A stretch of 64,000 bases of DNA, from contig NZ_JACMIA010000001.1 of the NCBI RefSeq assembly GCF_014252955.1, positions 1,302,001-1,366,000 of the forward strand, in the 5' to 3' direction. The notes beneath the pieces were generated by a model. It did no database searches and was not told where the DNA came from. It saw only the letters and a program-made list of their open reading frames with translations. The first letter of the stretch is position 1. Every line of letters starts with the position of its first letter. Shown here piece by piece: positions 24,213 to 35,576 of the stretch. The position numbers and the translations under genes are program-made. Source of the DNA: Stappia sp. 28M-7. Its GTDB lineage: Bacteria; Pseudomonadota; Alphaproteobacteria; Rhizobiales; Stappiaceae.

Positions 24213-25046
24213 ATGGCCATGACCTTCCGCCCCCTTGCCGTTGCCGTTGCGACCCTCATCGCCGTGGCGGGCCAGCCGGCTTTCGCCAGCGAGCCCGTCG
24301 GCGTTGCCAGCGCCGTCAACCAGAGCGCCCAGAGCCAGCGAGGCGGCGCGCGCATGCGCACCATCCGTATCGGCACCGACTTCGTGAATCGTGAAAAGAT
24401 CGAGACCGGCGCCTCGGGCCTCGTGCAGGTCCTGCTGGCCGACGGGTCCAACTTCGTGGTGGGTCCCAATTCCAGTCTCGTCATCGACGAGTTCGTCTAT
24501 TCGCCGTCCGCCGGCACGGGGCGCATCGTCGCCACCTTCGGCCGGGGCGTCGCCCGCTATGTCGGCGGGCGCATCTCCAAGCAGCGCGGCGGCGTCACCA
24601 TCAACACCCGCCAGGGCACCATCGGCGTGCGCGGCGGTATGGCCAATCTCGTCGACCGCGGCGGCCAGACGGTGTTCTCCTTCCTCTATGGCAAGGACCT
24701 GACCTTCACCGGCCGCAACGGTAAGACGACCCGTGTCTACCGGCCGGGCTTCTCGATCTTCGCCAATGGCGGGCAGGGCGCCACCCAGCGCACGCCCGGC
24801 TCGGTGGTCGCCGATGTCAACCGCATCCTGCAGGGCAACCGTCCCTCTGGCAGCCGCCCGACCGCCAGCCAGCTTGCCCGCTTCTCCGCGGTCAACTCGG
24901 CGCTGCCGCCTGCGTCCGAGGCGCAGTATCCCGCGCCGGTGCTGAGAAGCGTGCCGACCGGGACGGATCCGCGCGATGTCAATCACGCCAACTCCGTCTA
25001 CATCAAGTCGAATACCCCCACCTATTGCGTCGGCTACTCCTGCTAG
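24213..25046 (+). CDS. Secreted FecR-domain protein
   Basis: A 277-residue exported protein with a signal peptide (cut about residue 26, after AFAS). Residues about 35-165 form a FecR domain with LVQVLLADGSNFVVGPNSSL, FVYSPSAGTG and GTIGVRGGMANL. The C-terminal third is low-complexity and ends with two Cys (YCVGYSC). It lacks the membrane anchor of sigma-regulator FecR proteins, so it is probably periplasmic or surface-exposed. It is paralogous to the N-terminal part of the large protein at 28579. The start at 24213 has AGGAG 7 bp upstream. Function unknown. Confidence 0.8.
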   Translation: MAMTFRPLAVAVATLIAVAGQPAFASEPVGVASAVNQSAQSQRGGARMRTIRIGTDFVNREKIETGASGLVQVLLADGSNFVVGPNSSLVIDEFVYSPSAGTGRIVATFGRGVARYVGGRISKQRGGVTINTRQGTIGVRGGMANLVDRGGQTVFSFLYGKDLTFTGRNGKTTRVYRPGFSIFANGGQGATQRTPGSVVADVNRILQGNRPSGSRPTASQLARFSAVNSALPPASEAQYPAPVLRSVPTGTDPRDVNHANSVYIKSNTPTYCVGYSC

Positions 25047-25243
25047 CGGATTGCGCGCATCTTGCGGGGATGAGCGGGATACTTGTGCCCTGACGCGGCT
25101 GGAATGGTTGATCTGCCCCCGGCAAGCTGGCAGTCTCGCGATTGCGAATGCGGGGATCCGGGGCGCGGTGCCTTCCCCTTGTCGGTAGCCTGGGCAGTCG
25201 CCGCATCGACGGTGCGCGGCCTCATCTTGCGGGAGTGGACGGT

Positions 25244-26881
25244 ATGCGGGTTGCTTCTTTCGGCGCGGCCGTGCTGGCTGCTGCGGGCGGCGTGGTGCTG
25301 TCGGCGTCCCTTGCTGTCGCGCCGGCACAGGCCGATTACGCCCTGACGATCCTTCACATCAACGACCTGCACTCGCGCCTGGAGCCGATCAACAAGTACG
25401 ATTCCACCTGCGGCGCCGAGGATGACGCGGCGGGCAAGTGCTTCGGCGGCATCGCCCGCGTCAAGAGCAAGATCGACGAGCGCCGCTCGGCCCTTTCCGC
25501 TGCCGGCCGCAACGTGCTGACGCTCGATGCCGGCGACCAGTTCCAGGGCTCGCTGTTCTACACGACCTACAAGGGCGCCGCGGCGGCCGAGTTCATGAAC
25601 ATGATCGGCTTCGACGCGATGGCCGTCGGCAATCACGAGTTCGACGACGGCCCGGCCGGTCTCGCCGCCTTCCTGGACAAGGTCGATACCAAGGTCCTGT
25701 CCGGCAATATCGAGGTGGAGAACGAGCCGACGCTGAAGGGCAGGGTGCCCGGAACGCTGGTGCTCGAGATCGGCGGCCAGAAGGTCGGCATCGTCTCGGT
25801 GCTGGCCGAGGATACGGTCGAAACCTCCTCGCCCGGCCCCAACGTCTTCTTCCAGCGCGCCGAGACCTATCTGAAGGGCGCGGTCGAGGGTCTGCAGGCT
25901 GCCGGTGTCGACAAGATTGTCGCGCTGACCCATATGGGCCTGCCGCGCGACATGGAGATCGCCGCCCGCGTGCCGGGCATCGACGTCATCGTCGGCGGCC
26001 ACTCGCACACGCTGCTGTCCAACACCCATGAGGGCGCCGCCGGTCCCTATCCGGTGCTGGTGCAGAACCCGGCGGGCCGCCAGGTGCCCATCGTCCAGGC
26101 CTACGCCTATGGCAAGTTCCTGGGCGAGATCGAGATCGTCTTCGACGATGCCGGCAACGTCACCTCGGCGACCGGCAATCCGATCCTGCTCGACGCCTCG
26201 GTGCCGGCCGACAAGGCGGTCGGCGCGCGTCTTGGCGAACTCGCCGCTCCGCTCGAGGAGCTGCGCGCCAAGGTGATCGGCAGCACCGCCGAGACCATCG
26301 ACGGCTCGCGCGACACCTGCCGCGCCGGCGAGTGCACCATGGGTACCCTCATCGCCGATGCCATGCTGGAGCGCTCGCGCGGGCAGGGCGTGCAGATCGC
26401 CATCCAGAACGGCGGCGGCATCCGCGCCTCCATCGATGCCGGCGAGGTCACCATGGGCGAGGTGCTGACGGTGCTGCCCTTCCAGAACACGCTCGCCACC
26501 TTCCAGCTCAAGGGCCGCGATATCGTCGCCGCGCTGGAAAACGGCGTTTCGCAGGTGGAGGAGGGCGCCGGTCGCTTCCCGCAGGTCGCCGGCATCCGCT
26601 TTACCTGGACGCGCGCGCGCAAGCCGGGCGACGGCCGCATCATCCAGGTCGAGGTCGCGGAAGAGGGCGGCTGGCAGCCGCTCGACATGGACAAGACCTA
26701 TGTGGTGGCCACCAACAACTACATGCGCGGCGGCGGCGACGGCTACAAGATCTTCGCCGAGGCCGGCACCAATGCCTACGACTACGGGCCGGGGCTGGAG
26801 ACGGTGGTGGCGGACTACATCAGCGCGCTGCCCGAAGGCTACAAGCCCTATACCGACGGCCGGGTCCGCGAGGTCCAGTAA
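25244..26881 (+). CDS. Periplasmic 5'-nucleotidase/2',3'-cyclic phosphodiesterase family protein (UshA-like)
   Basis: A 545-residue exported metallophosphatase. A signal peptide of about 27 residues ends in PAQA. The metallophos domain shows LHINDLHSR, TLDAGDQFQGS, GNHEFDDG and VGGHSHT, the dinuclear-metal ligands of the 5'-nucleotidase family. The C-terminal domain has NGGGIRASI and NNYMRGGGDGY for nucleotide binding. It should release phosphate and nucleoside from nucleotides in the periplasm. The ATG at 25244 follows GGGAG; the frame is open further upstream. Two Cys near residue 45 and 60 may form a disulfide. Confidence 0.92.
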   Translation: MRVASFGAAVLAAAGGVVLSASLAVAPAQADYALTILHINDLHSRLEPINKYDSTCGAEDDAAGKCFGGIARVKSKIDERRSALSAAGRNVLTLDAGDQFQGSLFYTTYKGAAAAEFMNMIGFDAMAVGNHEFDDGPAGLAAFLDKVDTKVLSGNIEVENEPTLKGRVPGTLVLEIGGQKVGIVSVLAEDTVETSSPGPNVFFQRAETYLKGAVEGLQAAGVDKIVALTHMGLPRDMEIAARVPGIDVIVGGHSHTLLSNTHEGAAGPYPVLVQNPAGRQVPIVQAYAYGKFLGEIEIVFDDAGNVTSATGNPILLDASVPADKAVGARLGELAAPLEELRAKVIGSTAETIDGSRDTCRAGECTMGTLIADAMLERSRGQGVQIAIQNGGGIRASIDAGEVTMGEVLTVLPFQNTLATFQLKGRDIVAALENGVSQVEEGAGRFPQVAGIRFTWTRARKPGDGRIIQVEVAEEGGWQPLDMDKTYVVATNNYMRGGGDGYKIFAEAGTNAYDYGPGLETVVADYISALPEGYKPYTDGRVREVQ

Positions 26882-27114: not shown

Positions 27115-28524
27115 GTGGACGTGGCGGTGGTTGCCCGGCGTGGAGTACTGCGTATTGCTGGTGTTGCTGCAGCCGGTCTGATTGCGGTCGCCGGCGCGGC
27201 AAAGGCGCAGGACGTCGCCGCTCAGGGTCAGGCCCAGGAGCCGGCCTTGGTCGCCGGGGCTCCCATGACGCAGGAGCAGCTGCGCGCCCGCCAGACCGAG
27301 CTTCTGGCGGCGATGATGCGCGATCCCGCCAATCTCGACCTTGCCTTCGAATATGCCACCCTGTCGGCCCGCATGGGCGACTACGAGGCTGCCATCGGCA
27401 CCTTCGAGCGCATGCTGATCTACGCGCCGGGCCTGCCGCGCATCCAGCTGGAGCTCGGCGTCCTCTACTTCCGCCTCGGTTCCTTCGATGCCGCACGCTC
27501 CTATTTCGAGCAGGCCCTGCAGGCGCCGAACGTGCCGCCGGAAGTGACGGAGCGCGTCCAGACCTTCATGACCGCCATCGACACTGCCGAGGATCCGACC
27601 AAGTTCTCGGCAACGATCATGACGGGCCTGCGCTGGCAGTCCAACGCCAATGCCGGCCCCGGCGGCCGGCAGGTCACGCTGAACGGCGTCACCTTCCTGC
27701 TCGACGACACCGCCATCGGCCGGGCCGACTGGAACGCCTTCGTCGCCGGCAACGTGCATGCGGCCTATGACCTGGGCACCCAGGGCGATCTGCTGGAGGC
27801 GGACCTGCTGTTCTACGGCGGGCGCTATTTCGACAGCACGCGCCTCAACACCGAGCTTGCGGAGCTGACCTTCGGCCCCTCGTTCAACCTGGCCCGCTTC
27901 GACATCGACAACGCACGCCTCGGCCTTTACGGCATCCTGACCGGCGTGCGGCTCGACAATTCCAACTATTCCGGCGCGACCGGTTTCGGCGCCCGCTTCG
28001 GCATGCAGCCGAGCCCGCTGTCGAGCGTCAACGCCAAGGTCGAATACCGCTATCGCTGGTACCGTGACAGCCGCACCTATCCGACCGTCAGCGATCGCAA
28101 CGGCTACCAGATCCTGGCGCAGCTGACCAACAGCTACCAGTTTTCCGCCGCATGGTCGGGCCGCGTCGCCCTGCTTGGCGACTACGAGCATGCGTCCGTG
28201 CGCTACGAGCAGAGCTGGGAGGCGGGCGCGTCCGCCGGCGTCACCTATCGGTTCGCCTCGCCGGTGGAGATGCTGCGCACCGTCTGGTCGGTCGATGCCG
28301 ATGCCGGCTACACCCGCCGCGAGTTCGCCTCGCCGGATCCGGCCATCAGCGCGACGAAGAGCCAGACCGACAACGAATTGTGGGTGCGCGGCGCGCTGAA
28401 CGTGCCGTTCCGCCAGGATATCGCCATGTCGCTGGCGGCCGAGTTCCGCCGGATGCAATCGAATTACCAGACGCGCGACTATTCCAACACGTCGCTGACG
28501 CTGAGCCTGATCAAGACGTTCTGA
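27115..28524 (+). CDS. TPR plus outer-membrane beta-barrel protein, candidate SLAM/DUF560-like (type XI) secretor
   Basis: A 469-residue exported protein. A signal peptide (about 32 residues, ending AKA) is followed by TPR-like helices (about 55-165: FEYATLSARMGDYEAAIGTF, VLYFRLGSFDAARSYFEQAL). A beta-barrel of alternating strands (about 180-469) ends in Phe (LSLIKTF), as outer membrane proteins do. TPR plus barrel at this size is the layout of SLAM/DUF560 proteins, which carry TbpB-like barrel proteins across the outer membrane. The next gene encodes a protein with a TbpB-like C-terminus, which supports this. GTG start with GGAGGGG just upstream. A plain porin-like OMP with TPRs is the alternative. 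Confidence 0.75.
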   Translation: MDVAVVARRGVLRIAGVAAAGLIAVAGAAKAQDVAAQGQAQEPALVAGAPMTQEQLRARQTELLAAMMRDPANLDLAFEYATLSARMGDYEAAIGTFERMLIYAPGLPRIQLELGVLYFRLGSFDAARSYFEQALQAPNVPPEVTERVQTFMTAIDTAEDPTKFSATIMTGLRWQSNANAGPGGRQVTLNGVTFLLDDTAIGRADWNAFVAGNVHAAYDLGTQGDLLEADLLFYGGRYFDSTRLNTELAELTFGPSFNLARFDIDNARLGLYGILTGVRLDNSNYSGATGFGARFGMQPSPLSSVNAKVEYRYRWYRDSRTYPTVSDRNGYQILAQLTNSYQFSAAWSGRVALLGDYEHASVRYEQSWEAGASAGVTYRFASPVEMLRTVWSVDADAGYTRREFASPDPAISATKSQTDNELWVRGALNVPFRQDIAMSLAAEFRRMQSNYQTRDYSNTSLTLSLIKTF

Positions 28525-28578
28525 CATCGACATCGCCTGACACGTGGCATGACACGCGCCGTTCTGAAGGGGGCTGAA

Positions 28579-31401
28579 ATGCGCAGGCAATATATGATGG
28601 CGGCCCTGGGAGCCGCCCTTGTCGTGGTGCCCGGGGCCGCTGCAGCCCGCAACGACGTCGGCGTTGCCGCCGCCGTCAACCAGGACGCCCTGCGCACGCC
28701 GCCGGGCGCCGGCACCCGCACCATCGTCCTCGGCGACAATCTGATCTACCGCGAGCGGATCGAGACAGCCGGCGAGGGGCTGGTGCAGATCCTGCTGGTC
28801 GACGGTTCCACCTTCACCGTGGGCGCCAATTCCGACCTCGTCATCGACGAGTTCGTCTACGACCCCAATGCCGGCACTGGCAAGCTCGTCGCCACGTTCG
28901 GCAAGGGCGTGGCCCGCTTTGTCGGCGGCCGCCTCAGCAAGAATGCCGGCGGTGTCACCGTCAAGACGCCGGTCGGCACCATCGGCATCCGCGGCGGCAT
29001 CGCCAATCTCAATCTTCTGGGCGGGGGCGCACGCTTCTCGTTGCTGTTCGGCGACGAACTGAGCTTCACCGGTCTCAACGGCGAGAGCCGGCGCATCTAC
29101 GAGCGCGGCTATACGCTGGCCATCGCCTCGGCGGCGTCTGGCAATTACAGGCCGGAGATCCGCCGCACCAACCAGGCCGACATTGCCGGCGTGCAGCAGG
29201 GCCTCGCCGGCCGCGGCGGGCAGACCGGCGGCATCTCAAGCCCGCCGACCGACAGCCAGGTCCGCAATTCCGGTGTCGGGCAGGCCAATTCCGGTCGGCC
29301 GGTCGTTGCCGTCCTGCCGCGGCCGCGTCCGCAAGTGGTGGAATCGACCCAGATCAACGAAGGCGGCCAGGTCGTCAACGAGATCAACCATGGCGCCACC
29401 AACGAAATCATCCGCGACGTGGTGGTCGGCGGCACGCCGCCGCCGGTGGAAGGCGCCGAGGTCGTGATGCGCGTGCTCACGGCGGCCTCGTCCTACAGCC
29501 CGGCCTCGGAGACCTTCACGGTGACCGATCCCGGCCGCCAGGGGCTGATCGGCGGCACGCCGGGCAGCGACATCACCGCCACGTTCACAGTGACCGCCGA
29601 GGGCACCCAGCTGACCGGCACCATCGGCGGCGAGACCCTCACCATTCCCCTGCCGACGGGCGGGCAGGCGGCGTTCCGCGTCGTCACCTCGGGCGGGCGC
29701 ACGGTTGCAGGCACCGTCCATCGCAACGGCGACCATTTCCTCGCCTTCACCTATTTCGAGGAGATCTCCGCGCCGCTCCTCGTTCCTTCCGAGGTGCCGG
29801 GAACCGTCGGCGGGCCGCTTGTCGTCAATGCTCCGGTCTTCGGCTTTTGGGGTGTGCGCACCGATCCCGCGACGCTCCGCGAGACCGGCACCAACCAGAT
29901 CCGCCGCTATCACCTGTCGGCCGATCCGGTGCAGGTGGCGCGCACCGGCGTTGCCCACGATCTCTATTTCCTCAACCCGCTGGCGGGCGAGCTGCTAGGC
30001 CCCTCGTTCCTGCAGAACGTGCGCACCAGCGATTTTCTGGTCGTGTCGGGCTCGGACCTCACCGACGACGATCCGCGCTTCCTCGTCTCCTCCATGCTGA
30101 TCCAGGGGCAGGGCGCCTCGCAGTCCTCGGCGATCTCCGTCTCGGCTGGCCAGATCTACGAGGACGAAGTGGACGGCTTCGTCATCGGTGGCCCCCGGCG
30201 CGGCGGCTTCCGCGTGTCGGGCTACGATCCGTCCGTGCTCTATGCCGGGCCCGTCTCCTCTCTTCCCGGCAGCGATGGTGGCCATGTCTTCGGCCCGAAC
30301 GGCGATAATTTCGTCCTCGGTTTCGGCCCCGGCGATCTCGATGCCGGAAACGACAGCTCCGCGCGTCTTCCGCTCCCTTACGAGACGGTCACCGACACGG
30401 TTTCCGGCTACACGCATGTGGGGCAGGTCGCCTCGATCTCGCCGTCGGGCGAGTTCGTCCGCACCACACGGCTGCTCAACGGCTATGCCTCCGGCATGGT
30501 CGAGGTCGGGACGAATGGCGGCGCTGCGGTGCCGTTCTGGTCGATGTCGCCGAACATGTTGACCATGGGCTTCGACGCGGTGAGCAATTCCGTCGGCGCG
30601 AGCATGACCGTGCTCGACGCTTTCGATGGCGACGAGCACCTTGCAGGGCTTGTGCTGGGTTTCGGCGACAGCCTGTTCACCACCGGACCGAACGGCCAGT
30701 CGGCGCTGATCGACGATAACCGCTATGCGCTCACCTACAATTTCGGCGAGACCTTCGCGATCACCGACGATGAGGAGGTGATCGCCCCCGACAGCAACCC
30801 GCGCAGCTACATGGTGCCCTCGACCTTGGTCGCCGGGGCGGACAATGCGCTGTTCACCGATGTGGCGCGCTGCACCTGCTCCTTCCTCGAGTGGGGCTAT
30901 TGGGGCACGCGCTTCCGCGGCGAGGACGTGTCCGAAACCGCCCCGTCCGATCCGCGCCGGCGCGATTTCGTGCATCTGGGCACCTGGGCGGCCGGCGATG
31001 TCTCGACCTATGGCGAACTGCCGACCGTCGGCACCGCTTCCTATGCCGGCCATGCGGTGGGCAACGTGGCGCGGACCACGTCCGACGGGCCGGTGCAGTA
31101 TCTGGCCGCCGGCAACTTCAACATGACCTACGATTTCGGTTCGCGCAGCGGCAGCGCCAGCATTACCAATTTCGACGGATACAATTTCGGCGGATCGTTG
31201 ACCTCGCCCACCGGGAGTGCCGAAGGACTGAACAGCTTTGTCGGCGGGCTGTCCAATCCCGGCGAGACCCTGTCGGGCGTTCTGACCGGCTCCTTCGTGC
31301 GCGGCCCGACCGGGCCGGCGCAGGGCGTCGTCGGCAGCTTCGGCGTGTCCGATCCCTCCGGCGCCTACACCGCGACCGGCGTCGTCGTCGGTCAGCAGTA
31401 G
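28579..31401 (+). CDS. Large FecR-domain exported protein with C-terminal TbpB-like barrel, candidate secreted cargo
   Basis: A 940-residue exported protein with a signal peptide (about 25 residues, ending AAA, no lipobox Cys). A FecR domain at about 35-160 (VQILLVDGSTFTVGANSDLV, GTIGIRGGIANL) is paralogous to the protein at 24213. Long beta-rich segments follow. The last 120 residues (TASYAGHAVGNV, AGNFNMTYDFGSRSGSASI, GVVGSFGVSDP) follow the strand pattern of the TbpB-type 8-stranded barrel. It starts 54 bp after the TPR/barrel gene, with AAGGGGG before the ATG at 28579. It may be released or displayed by that partner. The ligand is unknown; a CxC pair lies near residue 766. Confidence 0.72.
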   Translation: MRRQYMMAALGAALVVVPGAAAARNDVGVAAAVNQDALRTPPGAGTRTIVLGDNLIYRERIETAGEGLVQILLVDGSTFTVGANSDLVIDEFVYDPNAGTGKLVATFGKGVARFVGGRLSKNAGGVTVKTPVGTIGIRGGIANLNLLGGGARFSLLFGDELSFTGLNGESRRIYERGYTLAIASAASGNYRPEIRRTNQADIAGVQQGLAGRGGQTGGISSPPTDSQVRNSGVGQANSGRPVVAVLPRPRPQVVESTQINEGGQVVNEINHGATNEIIRDVVVGGTPPPVEGAEVVMRVLTAASSYSPASETFTVTDPGRQGLIGGTPGSDITATFTVTAEGTQLTGTIGGETLTIPLPTGGQAAFRVVTSGGRTVAGTVHRNGDHFLAFTYFEEISAPLLVPSEVPGTVGGPLVVNAPVFGFWGVRTDPATLRETGTNQIRRYHLSADPVQVARTGVAHDLYFLNPLAGELLGPSFLQNVRTSDFLVVSGSDLTDDDPRFLVSSMLIQGQGASQSSAISVSAGQIYEDEVDGFVIGGPRRGGFRVSGYDPSVLYAGPVSSLPGSDGGHVFGPNGDNFVLGFGPGDLDAGNDSSARLPLPYETVTDTVSGYTHVGQVASISPSGEFVRTTRLLNGYASGMVEVGTNGGAAVPFWSMSPNMLTMGFDAVSNSVGASMTVLDAFDGDEHLAGLVLGFGDSLFTTGPNGQSALIDDNRYALTYNFGETFAITDDEEVIAPDSNPRSYMVPSTLVAGADNALFTDVARCTCSFLEWGYWGTRFRGEDVSETAPSDPRRRDFVHLGTWAAGDVSTYGELPTVGTASYAGHAVGNVARTTSDGPVQYLAAGNFNMTYDFGSRSGSASITNFDGYNFGGSLTSPTGSAEGLNSFVGGLSNPGETLSGVLTGSFVRGPTGPAQGVVGSFGVSDPSGAYTATGVVVGQQ

Positions 31402-31583: not shown

Positions 31584-31659
31584 GCCCAGGTAGCTCAGTT
31601 GGTAGAGCAGCGGATTGAAAATCCGCGTGTCGCTGGTTCGATTCCGGCCCTGGGCACCA
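31584..31659 (+). tRNA. tRNA-Phe (GAA)
   Basis: A 76-base cloverleaf including an encoded CCA end. The acceptor stem is GCCCAGG/CCTGGGC, the anticodon stem GCGGA/TCCGC with loop TTGAAAA (anticodon GAA), and the T-loop is GGTTCGATTCC. The 3' part of the gene is the attachment site of the island to its right, and the repeat restores an intact tRNA after integration. Partial copies of the 3' half at 45330-45379 (inverted) and 48853-48902 lack the 5' half and are not functional tRNAs. Confidence 0.97.
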
Positions 31660-31660
31660 C
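31610..31660 (+). other. Attachment site attL (3' part of tRNA-Phe)
   Basis: The 51 bases from the anticodon stem to just past the CCA end are repeated exactly at 48853-48903, beyond the integrase gene. Such a repeat is the product of tyrosine-recombinase integration into a tRNA gene. The island lies between the two copies. Confidence 0.9.
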
Positions 31661-31956
31661 TTTCCCTTAGATAAATCCCTACAGATCAAGCCCTTAACGG
31701 CTTTATGGTGAGTCTTGGCGAGTCCGTCGTCAAGCCCTTCGTCACACTTCCGGTCCCGCCGGTGTGACGCCAGTGTGACCACCCTCATTTCTTGGATGGA
31801 AGCCGAGGGGGGTACCGGGGGATCTGCTGCCACTTCTTCCCTACGTAGGCGCTTCAGATTTTTCCGCCGTTTCTGGGTCCCCACTCTCGGTTTTGCGCCC
31901 CTGTCTGCGTTTGTCAGGCTTCGTCAGCAAAACAGGCGCTCAACCGGTCCCCACTT
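31661..31956. other. Non-coding left end of the island with probable integrase arm sites
   Basis: No gene is convincing here. TGTGACGCCAGTGTGAC at 31763-31779 is matched by TGTGACACCAGTGTGAC at 48776-48792 near the integrase end, in the same orientation, suggesting arm-type binding sites for the integrase or an excisionase. The open frame across this stretch and the tRNA is a translation of antisense tRNA sequence and is not accepted. Confidence 0.5.
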
Positions 31957-32553
31957 CTATAGCTCGACCTTGGAGCACCACCTTGCCGCCGACACTGACA
32001 GAAGTGCATTCAGCCGCGCCTGGAGATACTCCGCGTAGCGCGAGGACGGCTTGTTCCGGTGAGTGTCGGTGATCAGAAGACGAACGACTGAAGTCCAGAA
32101 GTGGTGCCGGTCCCGGTGCAGGAAGACGTCATTCAGTTCGACAAACTGGACCGCCAGGAACGCCCACCAGAACCGCTCTGCCAATTGCCCGTTGCTCTCC
32201 CCAGGGTGACACTGCCGGATCCTCTCGACCTGCCCCACGGCGGCTTCATAGGCCGCCCTACGGATGCGCCCCCTTGTGTCCTGGAAGTGGATGGGGCGGG
32301 GTCCGAAGGCCATCTCGGCGATCTTGCCGATCAGTCCCTGTGCCTCGTCATCAGCCGCTACGTGTGGCCCCAGAACCTTCCTCAGGTAGCGCTCATGGAC
32401 GGCTAGGAGCTGCTTGCCTGGACCTGCGACGGGTGCGCCATAGTGGCGGACCAAGGAGCGATGATAGGCACAATAGCGGCCCTTGCCGATCCGGACGCAG
32501 TGCGGAGCGTTGCAGGGCTGTTCCTTGATGAAAGACAATCGGTTAGAAGGCAT
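31957..32553 (-). CDS. Hypothetical island protein with N-terminal zinc-finger-like Cys/His motif (copy 1)
   Basis: A 198-residue protein, not assigned to a known family. Residues 14-32 have the pattern C-x4-C-x8-C-x2-H (CNAPHCVRIGKGRYCAYH), similar to the small zinc knuckle at the start of some phage HNH-type proteins, but no HNH catalytic motif is visible. The rest is predicted mostly helical and rich in Arg and His. An almost identical copy lies at 44436-45032. It is divergent from the helicase-like gene, and a perfect 9-bp-arm palindrome lies between them. A DNA-binding or element-control role is a guess from position. Confidence 0.6.
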   Translation of the reverse strand: MPSNRLSFIKEQPCNAPHCVRIGKGRYCAYHRSLVRHYGAPVAGPGKQLLAVHERYLRKVLGPHVAADDEAQGLIGKIAEMAFGPRPIHFQDTRGRIRRAAYEAAVGQVERIRQCHPGESNGQLAERFWWAFLAVQFVELNDVFLHRDRHHFWTSVVRLLITDTHRNKPSSRYAEYLQARLNALLSVSAARWCSKVEL

Positions 32554-32580
32554 GGGAAACGATGATTAATGCGGGCAGAC

Positions 32581-32601
32581 CTCTATAAGACCCTTATAGA
32601 G
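32581..32601. promoter_or_regulatory. Palindrome CTCTATAAG-ACC-CTTATAGAG
   Basis: A perfect inverted repeat with 9-bp arms and a 3-bp spacer, between the divergent 198-residue gene and the helicase-like gene. An inverted copy with the same arms lies at 44388-44408 in front of the second 198-residue gene. It includes a TATAAG that could serve as a -10 box on either strand. It is a likely operator/promoter of the element. Confidence 0.5.
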
Positions 32602-33386
32602 ACTTGCCTGCGTTTCGGTGGAACCAAATCGCAAATCACGACACTCAATGACAGTATTGCCATCCGATTTCGCCGCTGCAATGGAGCGGCTGTGGACTGT
32701 GAAGTTAGGCAACGTCGCCGGTCCTGCCTTCCGTGAGCTTTGGACCAGGATGGGAGAGACGTTCCACCTGGCAATCCGACAGAATATGAAGGCAAGCGCC
32801 CTATCAATTGCCCCAGCGTGGCAGGTTCTAGCGCCCGAGATGGGCGTCGGGAAGACACAGGGCGCTCTGCTGTATCTGGCCATGATGGCAAAGGCTTCGA
32901 GAAAATTTTCACCGCCTCTAAGAATCGGCGGTCTCTTTGTCGCTCGAACGATTCAGCAATGCGAGGACGCTGCACGCACGATCAATGAGCTTGCCGGCTT
33001 CGAGGCGGCCATTACGCGACACTCGTCCAACGCGGTCACCCTGCGAGAATGCGGACGTTTCCCAGTGGTAGTGATTACACATGCTGCTGTCACGCAGTCC
33101 TGGGCACAATCATATTCTGGAATAGTCGACATCTACGAGAGTTGGGAAGGCGGGCGTCGGTGCCTCGTCATCATTGATGAGGCCTTGGCCAATGCAGTTG
33201 AATTCCATTCAGTTGACGAAGGTTCATTGCACCGAGTGTTGGGGCTTCGCGTCTCTGCGGAGTTTAAGGCAAAGCATCGGCAGGCTTTCGCCGCAGTCTC
33301 GTCAATGCTGGATTTCTTCAAGGCTGTCTCAAGCCGCGTTGAAGAGATTTCACCCATATGGAGCGAGCAAGATCCGCTTTCCAGCG

Positions 33387-34764
33387 GTTAGCGTCCGAGG
33401 AGCTGGTGTAATTTCATCGCCGTCGGCGGTGTGATCCCAGGTGGCCATCGAGGTGTATGTTCGAGGTGGAGTTTGGCGACTTCAACCACGGCCCCTACGG
33501 AGACCCCGATGACCAAGACGAACATGGACCTGTCCGAGCTTCTGGCCAAGCACGATCAGGGCGACTTCTTGCGCGGCATTGCCGAAGCCGTGCTGCAACT
33601 GATCATGGAGACCGATGTGGAAGGCATCATCGGCGCCGGCCGGCATGAACGCAGCGGTGAACGCACGACCTGGCGCAACGGGTATCGAGAGCGCGCTCTC
33701 GATACCCGTTTGGGCACGCTGAACCTGCGGGTGCCGAAGCTGCGGCAGGGCAGCTATTTCCCGGGCTTCCTCGAGGCCCGCAAGACCTCCGAGCAGGCGC
33801 TGGTGGCGGTGATCCAGGAGGCTTGGATCGGCGGCGTCTCCACCCGCCGCGTCGACGAGCTGGTGCAGGCCATGGGGCTCAGCGGGATATCGAAGAGCAC
33901 GGTCTCGAAGCTCTGCAAGGATATCGATGACAGGGTCGGGGAGTTCCTGAACCGGCCGCTCACCGGCGACTGGCCCTATGTCTGGCTCGACGCCACCTAT
34001 CTCAAGGTCCGCCAAGGCGGGCGCATCGTGCCGGTCGCGGCCATAATTGCGGTGGCGGCCAACACCGAGGGCCGAAGGGAAATCATCGGCTTGGGCATTG
34101 GGCCCTCAGAGGCCGAGACCTTCTGGACCGAGTTTCTGCGTTCCCTCCGCGCCCGGGGGCTGAGTGGGGTCAAGCTGGTGATCAGCGATGCCCACACCGG
34201 CCTCAAGGCAGCCATTGCCCGGGTGTTCGAAGCGACCTGGCAGCGATGCCGCGTTCACTGGATCAGGAATGCTCTCGCCCACGTCTCGCGCGGCCAACAC
34301 ACCGTTGTCGCCGCCGCGATCCGCCAGGCTTTCGACCAGCCCGACCGCGCCCATGCGGGCGAAACCTGGCGCAAGGTTGCCGAACAACTGCGCCCGCGCT
34401 GGCCCAAGCTGGCCGATCTCATGGACGCCAGCGAGCATGACGTGCTGGCCTACATGTCCTTCCCGCGCCAGCACAGGACCAAGCTGCACAGCACCAACCC
34501 GATCGAGCGCCTGAACAAGGAGGTAAAGCGGCGCTCCGATGTCGTCGGGATCTTCCCCAACGAGGCCTCAATCATGCGCCTGATCGGCGCCGTGCTCTTC
34601 GAAGCCAACGACGAATGGCAGACCTCGAGCCGCTACATGATGGTCGAGGCCTTCGCCGAGATCGACAAGGAGGAGATCGACCCCATTCTCAGCATAACCA
34701 CGAAAGCCGCCTGATCATGCCCTCAGGCCATCCAGGAATTTACACCAGCTTGACGGACGTGACC
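33387..34764 (+). mobile_element. IS256-family insertion sequence, copy 1
   Basis: A 1378-bp element with imperfect terminal inverted repeats of about 28 bp (GTTAGCGTCCGAGGAGCTGG at the left; the reverse of the right end reads GGTCACGTCCGTCAAGCTGG). It is flanked by the 8-bp target duplication TTCCAGCG (33379-33386 and 34765-34772). It appears identical to the copy at 47074-48451, with the same orientation. It interrupts the helicase-like gene. Confidence 0.93.
33509..34714 (+). CDS. IS256-family (mutator-type) transposase, copy 1
   Basis: A 401-residue DDE transposase. The acidic residues lie in WLDATYLKVR, VISDAHTGLKAAI and NPIERLNKEVKRR, and the family motif CRVHWIRNAL is present. The ATG at 33509 with GGAG upstream gives the usual N-terminus (MTKTNMDLSELLAKHDQ); the frame is open to 33431 upstream. 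The protein looks intact, so the element is probably still active. It is identical to the product of the second copy. Confidence 0.95.
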   Translation: MTKTNMDLSELLAKHDQGDFLRGIAEAVLQLIMETDVEGIIGAGRHERSGERTTWRNGYRERALDTRLGTLNLRVPKLRQGSYFPGFLEARKTSEQALVAVIQEAWIGGVSTRRVDELVQAMGLSGISKSTVSKLCKDIDDRVGEFLNRPLTGDWPYVWLDATYLKVRQGGRIVPVAAIIAVAANTEGRREIIGLGIGPSEAETFWTEFLRSLRARGLSGVKLVISDAHTGLKAAIARVFEATWQRCRVHWIRNALAHVSRGQHTVVAAAIRQAFDQPDRAHAGETWRKVAEQLRPRWPKLADLMDASEHDVLAYMSFPRQHRTKLHSTNPIERLNKEVKRRSDVVGIFPNEASIMRLIGAVLFEANDEWQTSSRYMMVEAFAEIDKEEIDPILSITTKAA

Positions 34765-35576
34765 TTCCAGCGGGCAGATAGACGAGCTGGAGACACTCTT
34801 TCGCCAACTGGTGTCGGACTTGAAATCCGTATCGTCATACGACCCTATTTGGAATGATCCCGATAGCAAGAATGCGGAACTGCAGCATGTATGGGAGACC
34901 CTCTCTGCGATCATCCAGCTATATCGGCATTGGGCACTCTTCTCGATTCAAGGTTCGCGTAAGGCTCTAACCACCGGAAAAGAGAAGGTGCCGCATTTCT
35001 TTGCACCCGTAGTGCTGAATGCAACCGCGAACCAAGATCCCGTGTTGGACTATCGGCGCGCTAAACTCGTTCCGCTTCCCAAGGTGCGAAGCTATCGGAA
35101 TTTGACGATTCACATCCTCCGCTCCAACGGGATTGGCAAGACGGCAATGCGCGAAGCTGGTGAAGCGCGGCTTCGACACTTGGCGCAATTTGTCTCCGAG
35201 CACACCAAGCCAGGAGACAAGTGGATGGTGGTAACGCATCTGGCGACCGAGGCACTGGCAAGAAAGCATCTCCCGGAGGAGATTGCCTTGACTGGACATT
35301 GGGGCAGCCTCGACGGTCTCAACGACTTTCGCGACTGCAACAAGGCAGTGCTGTTTGGCCTGAGTTTCCGGGACCGAGCATGGCCCGTGAGCATGTATTT
35401 TGCGCTGAGAGGTGCTCAAACAAAAGAGTGGCTTCGATCCAAGGAAGCAAAGGCCATTCGTCACAGACTTGAGGTGATGTCGATTGCGGCACAGGTGATC
35501 CAGGCCTTTGAACTGGCCCCCCTTTCGACCGGACACTCAGGCATAACCATGGAGGCTTAGGGATATCCCTAAGCAC

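Follow-up and report, generated by a model that had tools for sequence, protein, structure and literature searches.

A FecR-headed protein encoded beside a Slam-like exporter in Stappia sp. 28M-7, and its possible link to CHASE2 cyclases

The window analysed here, a stretch of 64,000 nucleotides from contig 1 of the marine bacterium Stappia sp. 28M-7 (positions 1302001-1366000), encodes an outer-membrane protein made up of tetratricopeptide repeats (TPRs) and a β-barrel and, directly after it, an exported protein that begins with a conserved FecR domain and ends in a barrel of the fHbp/NHBA/TbpB type. We propose that these two proteins constitute an outer membrane-spanning sensor that has a Slam-like (type XI) translocon as its base and reports to a CHASE2 cyclase, an explanation that we hold tentatively and judge to fall just short of an even chance. 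Its basis lies in observed homologies, gene order and co-occurrence, and from these we infer export, topology, the contact between FecR and CHASE2, and the direction of signalling. The link to CHASE2, which extends through the class, is an addition to a preliminary description of this DNA, in which the gene pair had been put forward as a type XI secretor and its cargo.

The gene pair and its surroundings

The exporter gene (27115..28524, forward strand) opens with a GTG codon and encodes 469 residues. Residues 53-157 (27271..27585) make up the TPR region, for which helices are predicted with block pLDDT values of 66-83, and residues 158-469 (27586..28521), with a terminal Phe, make up the outer-membrane barrel, recognised by hhalign alignment to 12 PF04575-positive barrels. 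After 54 bp comes the gene for the FecR-headed partner, or cargo (28579..31401, same strand, ATG start), a protein of 940 residues with a Sec signal; a G-rich, ribosome-binding-like stretch lies 5' of each gene. The cargo can be divided into the FecR head (28648..29220), a linker and variable middle region (29221..30780) delimited from alignments, and a C-terminal module (30781..31398) in which a CxC...WGYWG signature is followed by an eight-stranded fHbp/NHBA/TbpB-like barrel (strands 819-939). The pair as first described is real, and its coordinates hold.

Upstream, in the same orientation, are genes for a small FecR-domain protein of 277 residues, counted from its ATG (24213..25046; PF04773, 32.1 bits), and for a 5'-nucleotidase of the UshA/CpdB type (25142..26881, start approximate; PF02872 8.7e-46, PF00149 1e-14). 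The small protein has a Sec signal peptide and is 51% identical to residues 8-256 of the cargo, making it a head-only paralogue of the cargo N-terminus; it is retained by relatives that do not have the large cargo, and is probably a second, head-only partner. The nucleotidase is syntenic, a conserved neighbour at most Stappiaceae loci. Next after the cargo is a tRNA-Phe (31584-31659), with a Mutator/IS256-type transposase (33431-34714; PF00872 3e-125) 3' of it. The region 31584-35560 also contains an ORF with a sub-threshold helicase match, and looks like a tRNA-borne mobile island.

With the FecI-FecR-FecA systems this locus has in common the name of the FecR domain and the PF04773 match. The FecR of the Stappia locus differs in being an exported head, the domain order is different, and no sigma factor or TonB receptor was recognised by eye among the upstream ORFs at 18.5-24 kb, which read as acyl-CoA synthetase-, Maf- and HisD-like; the downstream features are the tRNA and the transposase. 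Iron signalling of the FecIRA type was rejected on these grounds.

Relation of the exporter to the SlipAM/DUF560 family

Pfam models recognise the TPRs of the exporter (PF14559, 6e-09; PF07719, 3e-08). Its barrel gives sub-threshold Pfam matches only; PF04575, the SlipAM model, does not match the protein at E 10 and has no match in Stappia's own genome at E 0.001. Comparison of profiles is more informative. The barrels of 24 Stappiaceae members of the family, aligned by hhalign with the 12 PF04575-positive barrels of alphaproteobacterial SlipAM proteins, score 119.7 (P 6.7e-17, 279 columns), compared with 20.2 for a reversed control, 25.9 for BBP2_2 porins and at most 21.2 for 20 column shuffles. 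The SlipAM barrels themselves score 56.6 against the BBP2_2 control porins, and some generic similarity among barrels must therefore be allowed for. Relatives from the same branch do score above the 22-bit cut-off of PF04575 (L048, 25.6; L049, 22.3; G140, 24.8; G209, 28.4; G198, 24.6), and L048, G140 and G209 adjoin FecR-barrel genes. Given the hhalign match with its controls and the FecR-partnered relatives that pass PF04575, the window exporter is assigned, by sequence, to a distant sister branch of the SlipAM/DUF560 family (Slam, type XI), outside PF04575 membership. The Slam/DUF560 identity first suggested thus stands as regards barrel homology, TPRs, gene order and co-occurrence, and the barrel is much closer to SlipAM than to an unrelated porin family; the expected match to the DUF560 model itself was not found.

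In common with Slam and SlipAM proteins, the exporter has TPRs and a C-terminal outer-membrane barrel, homologous along its length, and an adjacent partner gene, and the cargos of both types end in an eight-stranded barrel (TbpB, fHbp, NHBA, HpuA and hemophilin are known examples). It differs in lying below Pfam detection, on a branch apart from classical SlipAM that is linked to CHASE2, and in having a partner that lacks a lipobox and begins with a FecR head, which is conserved. A tree of 85 rows, unrooted and made by a quick method with the near-identical L023 and L024 dropped, separates 12 classical SlipAM rows from a mostly FecR-partnered branch of 73 rows, with an SH-aLRT value of 100 at the split. 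Eleven of the 12 classical rows have no FecR neighbour and one is undecided, the label 'no FecR' being given to eight PF04575 rows because their genomes have no FecR-head match among the matches listed. The state of the neighbour changes four times on the tree.

The outer-membrane barrel of SlipAM proteins is 14-stranded. AF2 models of the exporter and the cargo were each built from five-row alignments, and that of the exporter is poor (mean pLDDT 46.7), with most of the barrel below 50 and its strand number not readable. Foldseek matched the exporter to BcsC (E 2e-4) and PelB (1.6e-3), in a list made up mainly of TPR chains. A polysaccharide exporter, with a TPR barrel like those of BcsC and PelB, was considered and rejected, the barrel profile favouring SlipAM.

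The FecR-headed cargo and its pairing with the exporter

In the preliminary description the cargo was credited with an N-terminal FecR domain and a C-terminal barrel of the TbpB type. The first is confirmed by PF04773, which matches residues 60-158 with 29.5 bits (cut-off 24). For the C-terminal module (residues ~735-940), the profile matches fHbp chains with a best E value of 8e-4, and NHBA at 0.12. The NCBIfam model slam_lipo ('Slam-dependent surface lipoprotein') and the Pfam model FHBP_C each match 14 of 16 cargo homologues at E ≤1, and match the window cargo at 1.4e-4 and 0.0026, respectively, both below the curated cut-offs. The model TbpB_B_D finds six of the 16 homologues at E ≤1 and does not find the window cargo at that value.

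The AF2 model of the cargo is likewise poor overall (mean pLDDT 34.9), the last 125 residues being those that form eight strands, between residues 819 and 939 (block pLDDT ~51-83). The best structural match of this barrel is NHBA (Z 13.9, 2.3 Å over 110 residues), and chains of NHBA, fHbp and TbpB occupy the first 29 VIA rows of the comparison, with more TbpB and haemophores below. Ail, an unrelated eight-stranded outer-membrane barrel, reaches Z scores of 12.6 and 11.7 at 7-8% identity; the fold alone is therefore not decisive, and the sequence profiles help. Profile matches to fHbp and slam_lipo together with the NHBA-like fold bear out a TbpB-type barrel, the predicted C-terminus being eight-stranded as supposed. 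A two-lobed, TbpB-like cargo was rejected, since hhalign gives a probability of 0.9% for an alignment of the middle profile with that of the C-terminus. One relative has a cargo frame of 1648 residues with two C-terminal barrel modules (L088, 7874-12817). Across 28 class-wide cargos, a CxC followed by WGxW (residues 765-775, window 30871-30903) and His825 are conserved at 79-96%, and may form a site that binds a metal or a ligand.

No other part of the cargo is as conserved as the head, which has a mean pairwise identity of 48% compared with 22% for the middle and 32% for the C-terminus (14 rows, the window cargo and 13 class-wide ones). This is the reverse of known type XI cargo, in which the N-termini are variable effector domains, according to passages of PMC9100927, and it bears on the orthodox type XI reading of the pair. 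The whole cargo would on that reading be exported and then released or peripherally bound like hemophilin, with FecR as an N-terminal effector and only an indirect link to CHASE2. Gene pair, C-terminal barrel and an SPI-type signal such as soluble type XI cargo possesses (passages of PMC8406197) would all be accounted for; the conserved head would not, nor would the FecR proteins without a detectable barrel that also adjoin exporters, nor the frequency of CHASE2 in FecR-head genomes given below, and we consider such an explanation unlikely.

Inspection of its N-terminus confirms that the window cargo has no lipobox, and none is convincing among 74 FecR-headed frames (four of them second copies of the same locus). 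Six of the 74 were flagged by a loose lipobox pattern and all six were rejected, because the flagged site precedes either the probable start or the hydrophobic segment, or falls within that segment. A FecR head without a lipobox, at first thought uncommon, is rather the rule in the whole exporter branch, and release of the cargo, at first thought possible, is less likely than the retention of the FecR head in the periplasm that we infer.

Exporter and barrel go together. Of 61 related genomes, 29 encode the exporter; the barrel domain was found in 17, every one of which is among those 29. In a survey of 289 alphaproteobacterial genomes the exporter occurs in 18 of 18 with a strong barrel match and in 31 of the remaining 271 (12 families; Fisher 6e-16), figures that treat genomes as independent and ignore phylogeny and genome size. 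A strong barrel was taken as ≥75 bits and an exporter as ≥130 bits with profile A1, giving 53 exporters in 49 genomes. Any barrel-domain match is found in 26 genomes, of which 18 were counted; three with weaker matches of 42-49 bits (G125, G216 and G223) all have the exporter, and the five weakest, at 20-24 bits (G087, G200, G270, G272 and G306), were left uncounted. Every strong barrel frame uncut by a contig or locus end has a FecR head.

A FecR-head gene lies within 3.5 kb of at least 39 of the 53 exporters, and directly downstream on the same strand in at least 35. Within the 39, the head of G312 is encoded on the opposite strand, 3.2 kb off, and the counting of G254 (third copy), G073 and G253 rests on match coordinates only. 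For the other 14 exporters no FecR head is found within 3.5 kb among the matches listed, seven of them sitting no more than 3.5 kb from where the fetched stretch ends; G106, one of the 53, groups with classical SlipAM on the tree. Throughout the class the FecR gene is repeatedly found after that of the exporter, and the co-occurrence in other Alphaproteobacteria, of which a survey had been suggested, is borne out.

The exporter does not in every case have the barrel as its substrate, as can be concluded from eight of the 29 exporter genomes, all Stappiaceae, in which exporter, nucleotidase and small FecR protein are kept and the genome has no barrel-domain match. Many class-wide FecR partners are, moreover, proteins of 288-675 residues without a detectable barrel, and some long ones may hold divergent barrels (L191, for example, matches TbpB_B_D at 2e-4). 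Genome G296 has six barrel matches (L097, L099, L102, L103, L109 and L110), its FecR-barrel genes lying away from the exporter, and those of G194 (L092 and L098) are placed likewise; each genome has one strong exporter gene, on another contig. This separation of FecR-barrel genes from the sole strong exporter gene suggests that one exporter serves several cargos in trans. At the locus L044, of relative G027, exporter and cargo are both interrupted, and other relatives have intact copies.

CHASE2 cyclases and a possible role in signalling

CHASE2 is encoded in all 49 exporter genomes compared with 98 of 240 others, and in 105 of 107 FecR-head genomes compared with 42 of 182 others, kinship and genome size being ignored in both comparisons. 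Among classical SlipAM genomes it is present in four of 21, this set being 21 of the 22 genomes that have a PF04575 match above the cut-off and do not belong to the exporter set; G306 was left out because its exporter (127 bits) falls in the FecR branch. A CHASE2 gene, mostly a cyclase, lies within 5 kb of at least 24 of the 53 exporters (23 by tblastn with a whole CHASE2 cyclase, G073 by a CHASE2 match), a lower bound because not all 53 loci were fetched. When the tblastn results are divided by partner, with the Stappiaceae left out, a CHASE2 cyclase is within 5 kb of 8 of 14 barrel-partnered exporters, of 15 among the 28 whose FecR partner is of another kind, of 3 among the 6 undecided cases and of none of the 9 FecR-less ones. 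On Paracoccus aminophilus pAMI5 and Shinella H4-D48 p1, the exporter, a FecR-barrel protein and a CHASE2 adenylate/guanylate cyclase are encoded in a row.

At 21 Stappiaceae loci tblastn found no CHASE2-type cyclase. The Stappia genome encodes two CHASE2 cyclases, and the one of the exporter-linked type, with 43-46% identity to its four best matches, is in trans at ~4.13 Mb on contig 1. The second adjoins a caspase-domain (PF00656) gene (L271, 67-4507). In one Stappiaceae relative a class III cyclase with TPRs and without CHASE2 lies downstream of the exporter (L039, 4819-6588). FecR and CHASE2-cyclase genes also form pairs without an annotated exporter in Ruegeria, and with only a short TPR gene in Ensifer. 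NHLP-type bacteriocin export genes adjoin the FecR/cyclase cluster in Shinella and Ensifer (L260, 9662-12439; L268, 1-2764).

The head weakly resembles known retention modules. Its profile matches PDB chain 5ix9_A ('Antifreeze protein'), which we take to be an N-terminal portion of MpAFP, an RTX adhesin, at E 3.7e-4, and NF033682 (retention_LapA) weakly matches 9 of 16 members, with a best value of 0.0015 and 14.4 bits for the window cargo (cut-off 50). FecR heads are also found on RTX proteins: 12 loci were fetched, eight of them gave nine long FecR-headed frames, and seven of the nine have three or more RTX nonapeptides. Type 1 and type 5b secretion are known to make use of retention modules (passages of PMC13090378), and the head could be a folded plug of the LapA type that keeps the cargo lodged in the exporter, where it would serve as an adhesin at the surface with no part in signalling. 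We think this rather improbable; the similarities stay below curated cut-offs, the LapG-type cleavage motif [T/A/P]AAG follows the head in one of 16 members, and the CHASE2 link would be left unexplained. Two of the genomes with RTX-type FecR heads, G282 and G201, have a CHASE2 match at a distance of 3.0-3.5 kb from that head. The cargo has in common with LapA and CdrA-type adhesins an N-terminal head on a surface protein, weakly similar in sequence, and differs in its exporter and in the missing LapG motif. Regulated release of the Lap type was rejected, given the absence of that motif in 15 of 16; a PF06035 peptidase is encoded in the Stappia genome.

In the sensor that we propose, exporter and cargo would both reach the periplasm by Sec, to judge from their signal peptides. 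The TPR-barrel protein would insert into the outer membrane and may recognise the C-terminal fHbp/TbpB-like barrel of its neighbour, which would be threaded C-terminus first, as in TbpB, where the C-terminal barrel is reported to emerge first (passages of PMC9100927). Barrel and variable middle would be displayed outside. The FecR head would stay in the periplasm, anchoring the cargo in place of a lipid, and would contact the CHASE2 sensor belonging to an adenylate/guanylate cyclase in the inner membrane, through which surface events could alter cAMP or cGMP. This last step is suggested by the gene neighbourhoods, the co-occurrence and the precedent of NsrA and CyaK; in Stappia the partner would be the cyclase encoded in trans.

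On S. meliloti pSymB, cyaK carries CHASE2, and the gene directly upstream, which by its position we take to be nsrA, encodes 1197 residues with a signal peptide, a FecR domain (57.8 bits) and TPRs. Pfam FecR alone matches this protein; our FecR-head and cargo-barrel profiles do not, its best Pfam barrel match is 0.075, and the exporter profile matches its TPR part only (15 bits). NsrA of Sinorhizobium is described as an outer-membrane β-barrel receptor that is needed for signalling via CHASE2 cyclases (passages of PMC7529298 and PMC13001267). What the plant-signal pathway of NsrA and CyaK (CyaD1/D2) shares with our system is the combination of FecR and TPR modules with a neighbouring CHASE2 cyclase. 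They differ in that NsrA is a single chain and that its cyclase adjoins the receptor gene, no CHASE2 cyclase having been found at the 21 Stappiaceae loci.

A single chain with both FecR and TPRs, and the barrel reported for NsrA, would also suit a receptor complex in which nothing is secreted; the exporter would then be a receptor or porin, the FecR protein a wholly periplasmic relay of its state to the cyclase, and the C-terminal barrel a lipocalin-like periplasmic domain. The existence of barrel-free FecR partners, and of exporters kept where the barrel cargo is absent, is in keeping with this. Both barrels, however, are homologous to Slam and to Slam cargo, over the porin control, and we regard such a complex as very unlikely.

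Other systems bear on the sensor proposal. Campylobacterota have clustered genes for a CHASE2 adenylate cyclase, FecR, TPR and phosphodiesterase proteins, for which one pathway has been proposed, a similar combination of modules by description rather than by sequence, with no Slam-like exporter described in the passages concerned (PMC9239204). Burkholderia has genes for a FecR-LysM protein and a CHASE2 histidine kinase together (passages of PMC5192318). A different FecR protein of S. meliloti, SMc02177, is dispensable for perception of the plant signal, and its authors name effector secretion as another possibility (passages of PMC5498481). FecR heads might even be a general periplasmic adaptor, by which Slam-like, RTX and NsrA proteins, despite their different routes of secretion, would remain lodged across the outer membrane and signal to CHASE2 cyclases, an idea that we find possible and on the whole doubtful. 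Both it and the sensor are weakened because the FecR-head profile misses the gene upstream of cyaK and a barrel there is unsupported.

Against the sensor also stand the missing CHASE2 cyclase at the Stappiaceae loci and the FecR-cyclase pairs that occur without an annotated exporter or with only a short TPR gene. The failure of PF04575 to match the exporter, the score between SlipAM barrels and porins, the SMc02177 result and the barrel-free FecR partners likewise argue against it, as do the poor models of the exporter barrel and most of the cargo, and a co-occurrence that takes no account of phylogeny or genome size.

Lipoproteins, adhesins and haemophores are the substrates for which type XI secretion has been described. 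FecR is not mentioned in the main text of the type XI literature searched, and the search found no paper that treats type XI secretion and FecR together; one clinical genome paper contains both 'FecR domain' and 'transferrin-binding protein-like' (PMC12300311). In the literature that joins CHASE2 with FecR, the passages concerned describe no Slam-like exporter. If the sensor proposal is right, one branch of type XI translocons serves signalling, and many alphaproteobacterial genes annotated as 'FecR domain-containing' and 'tetratricopeptide repeat' would gain a joint function. The precedent of NsrA and CyaK would be extended to the way in which CHASE2 cyclases may perceive conditions outside the cell, and the question of what CHASE2 senses would become testable with a three-gene module in strains that are harmless. 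Were the general adaptor also true, the type XI system would double as a surface sensor that controls cAMP or cGMP.
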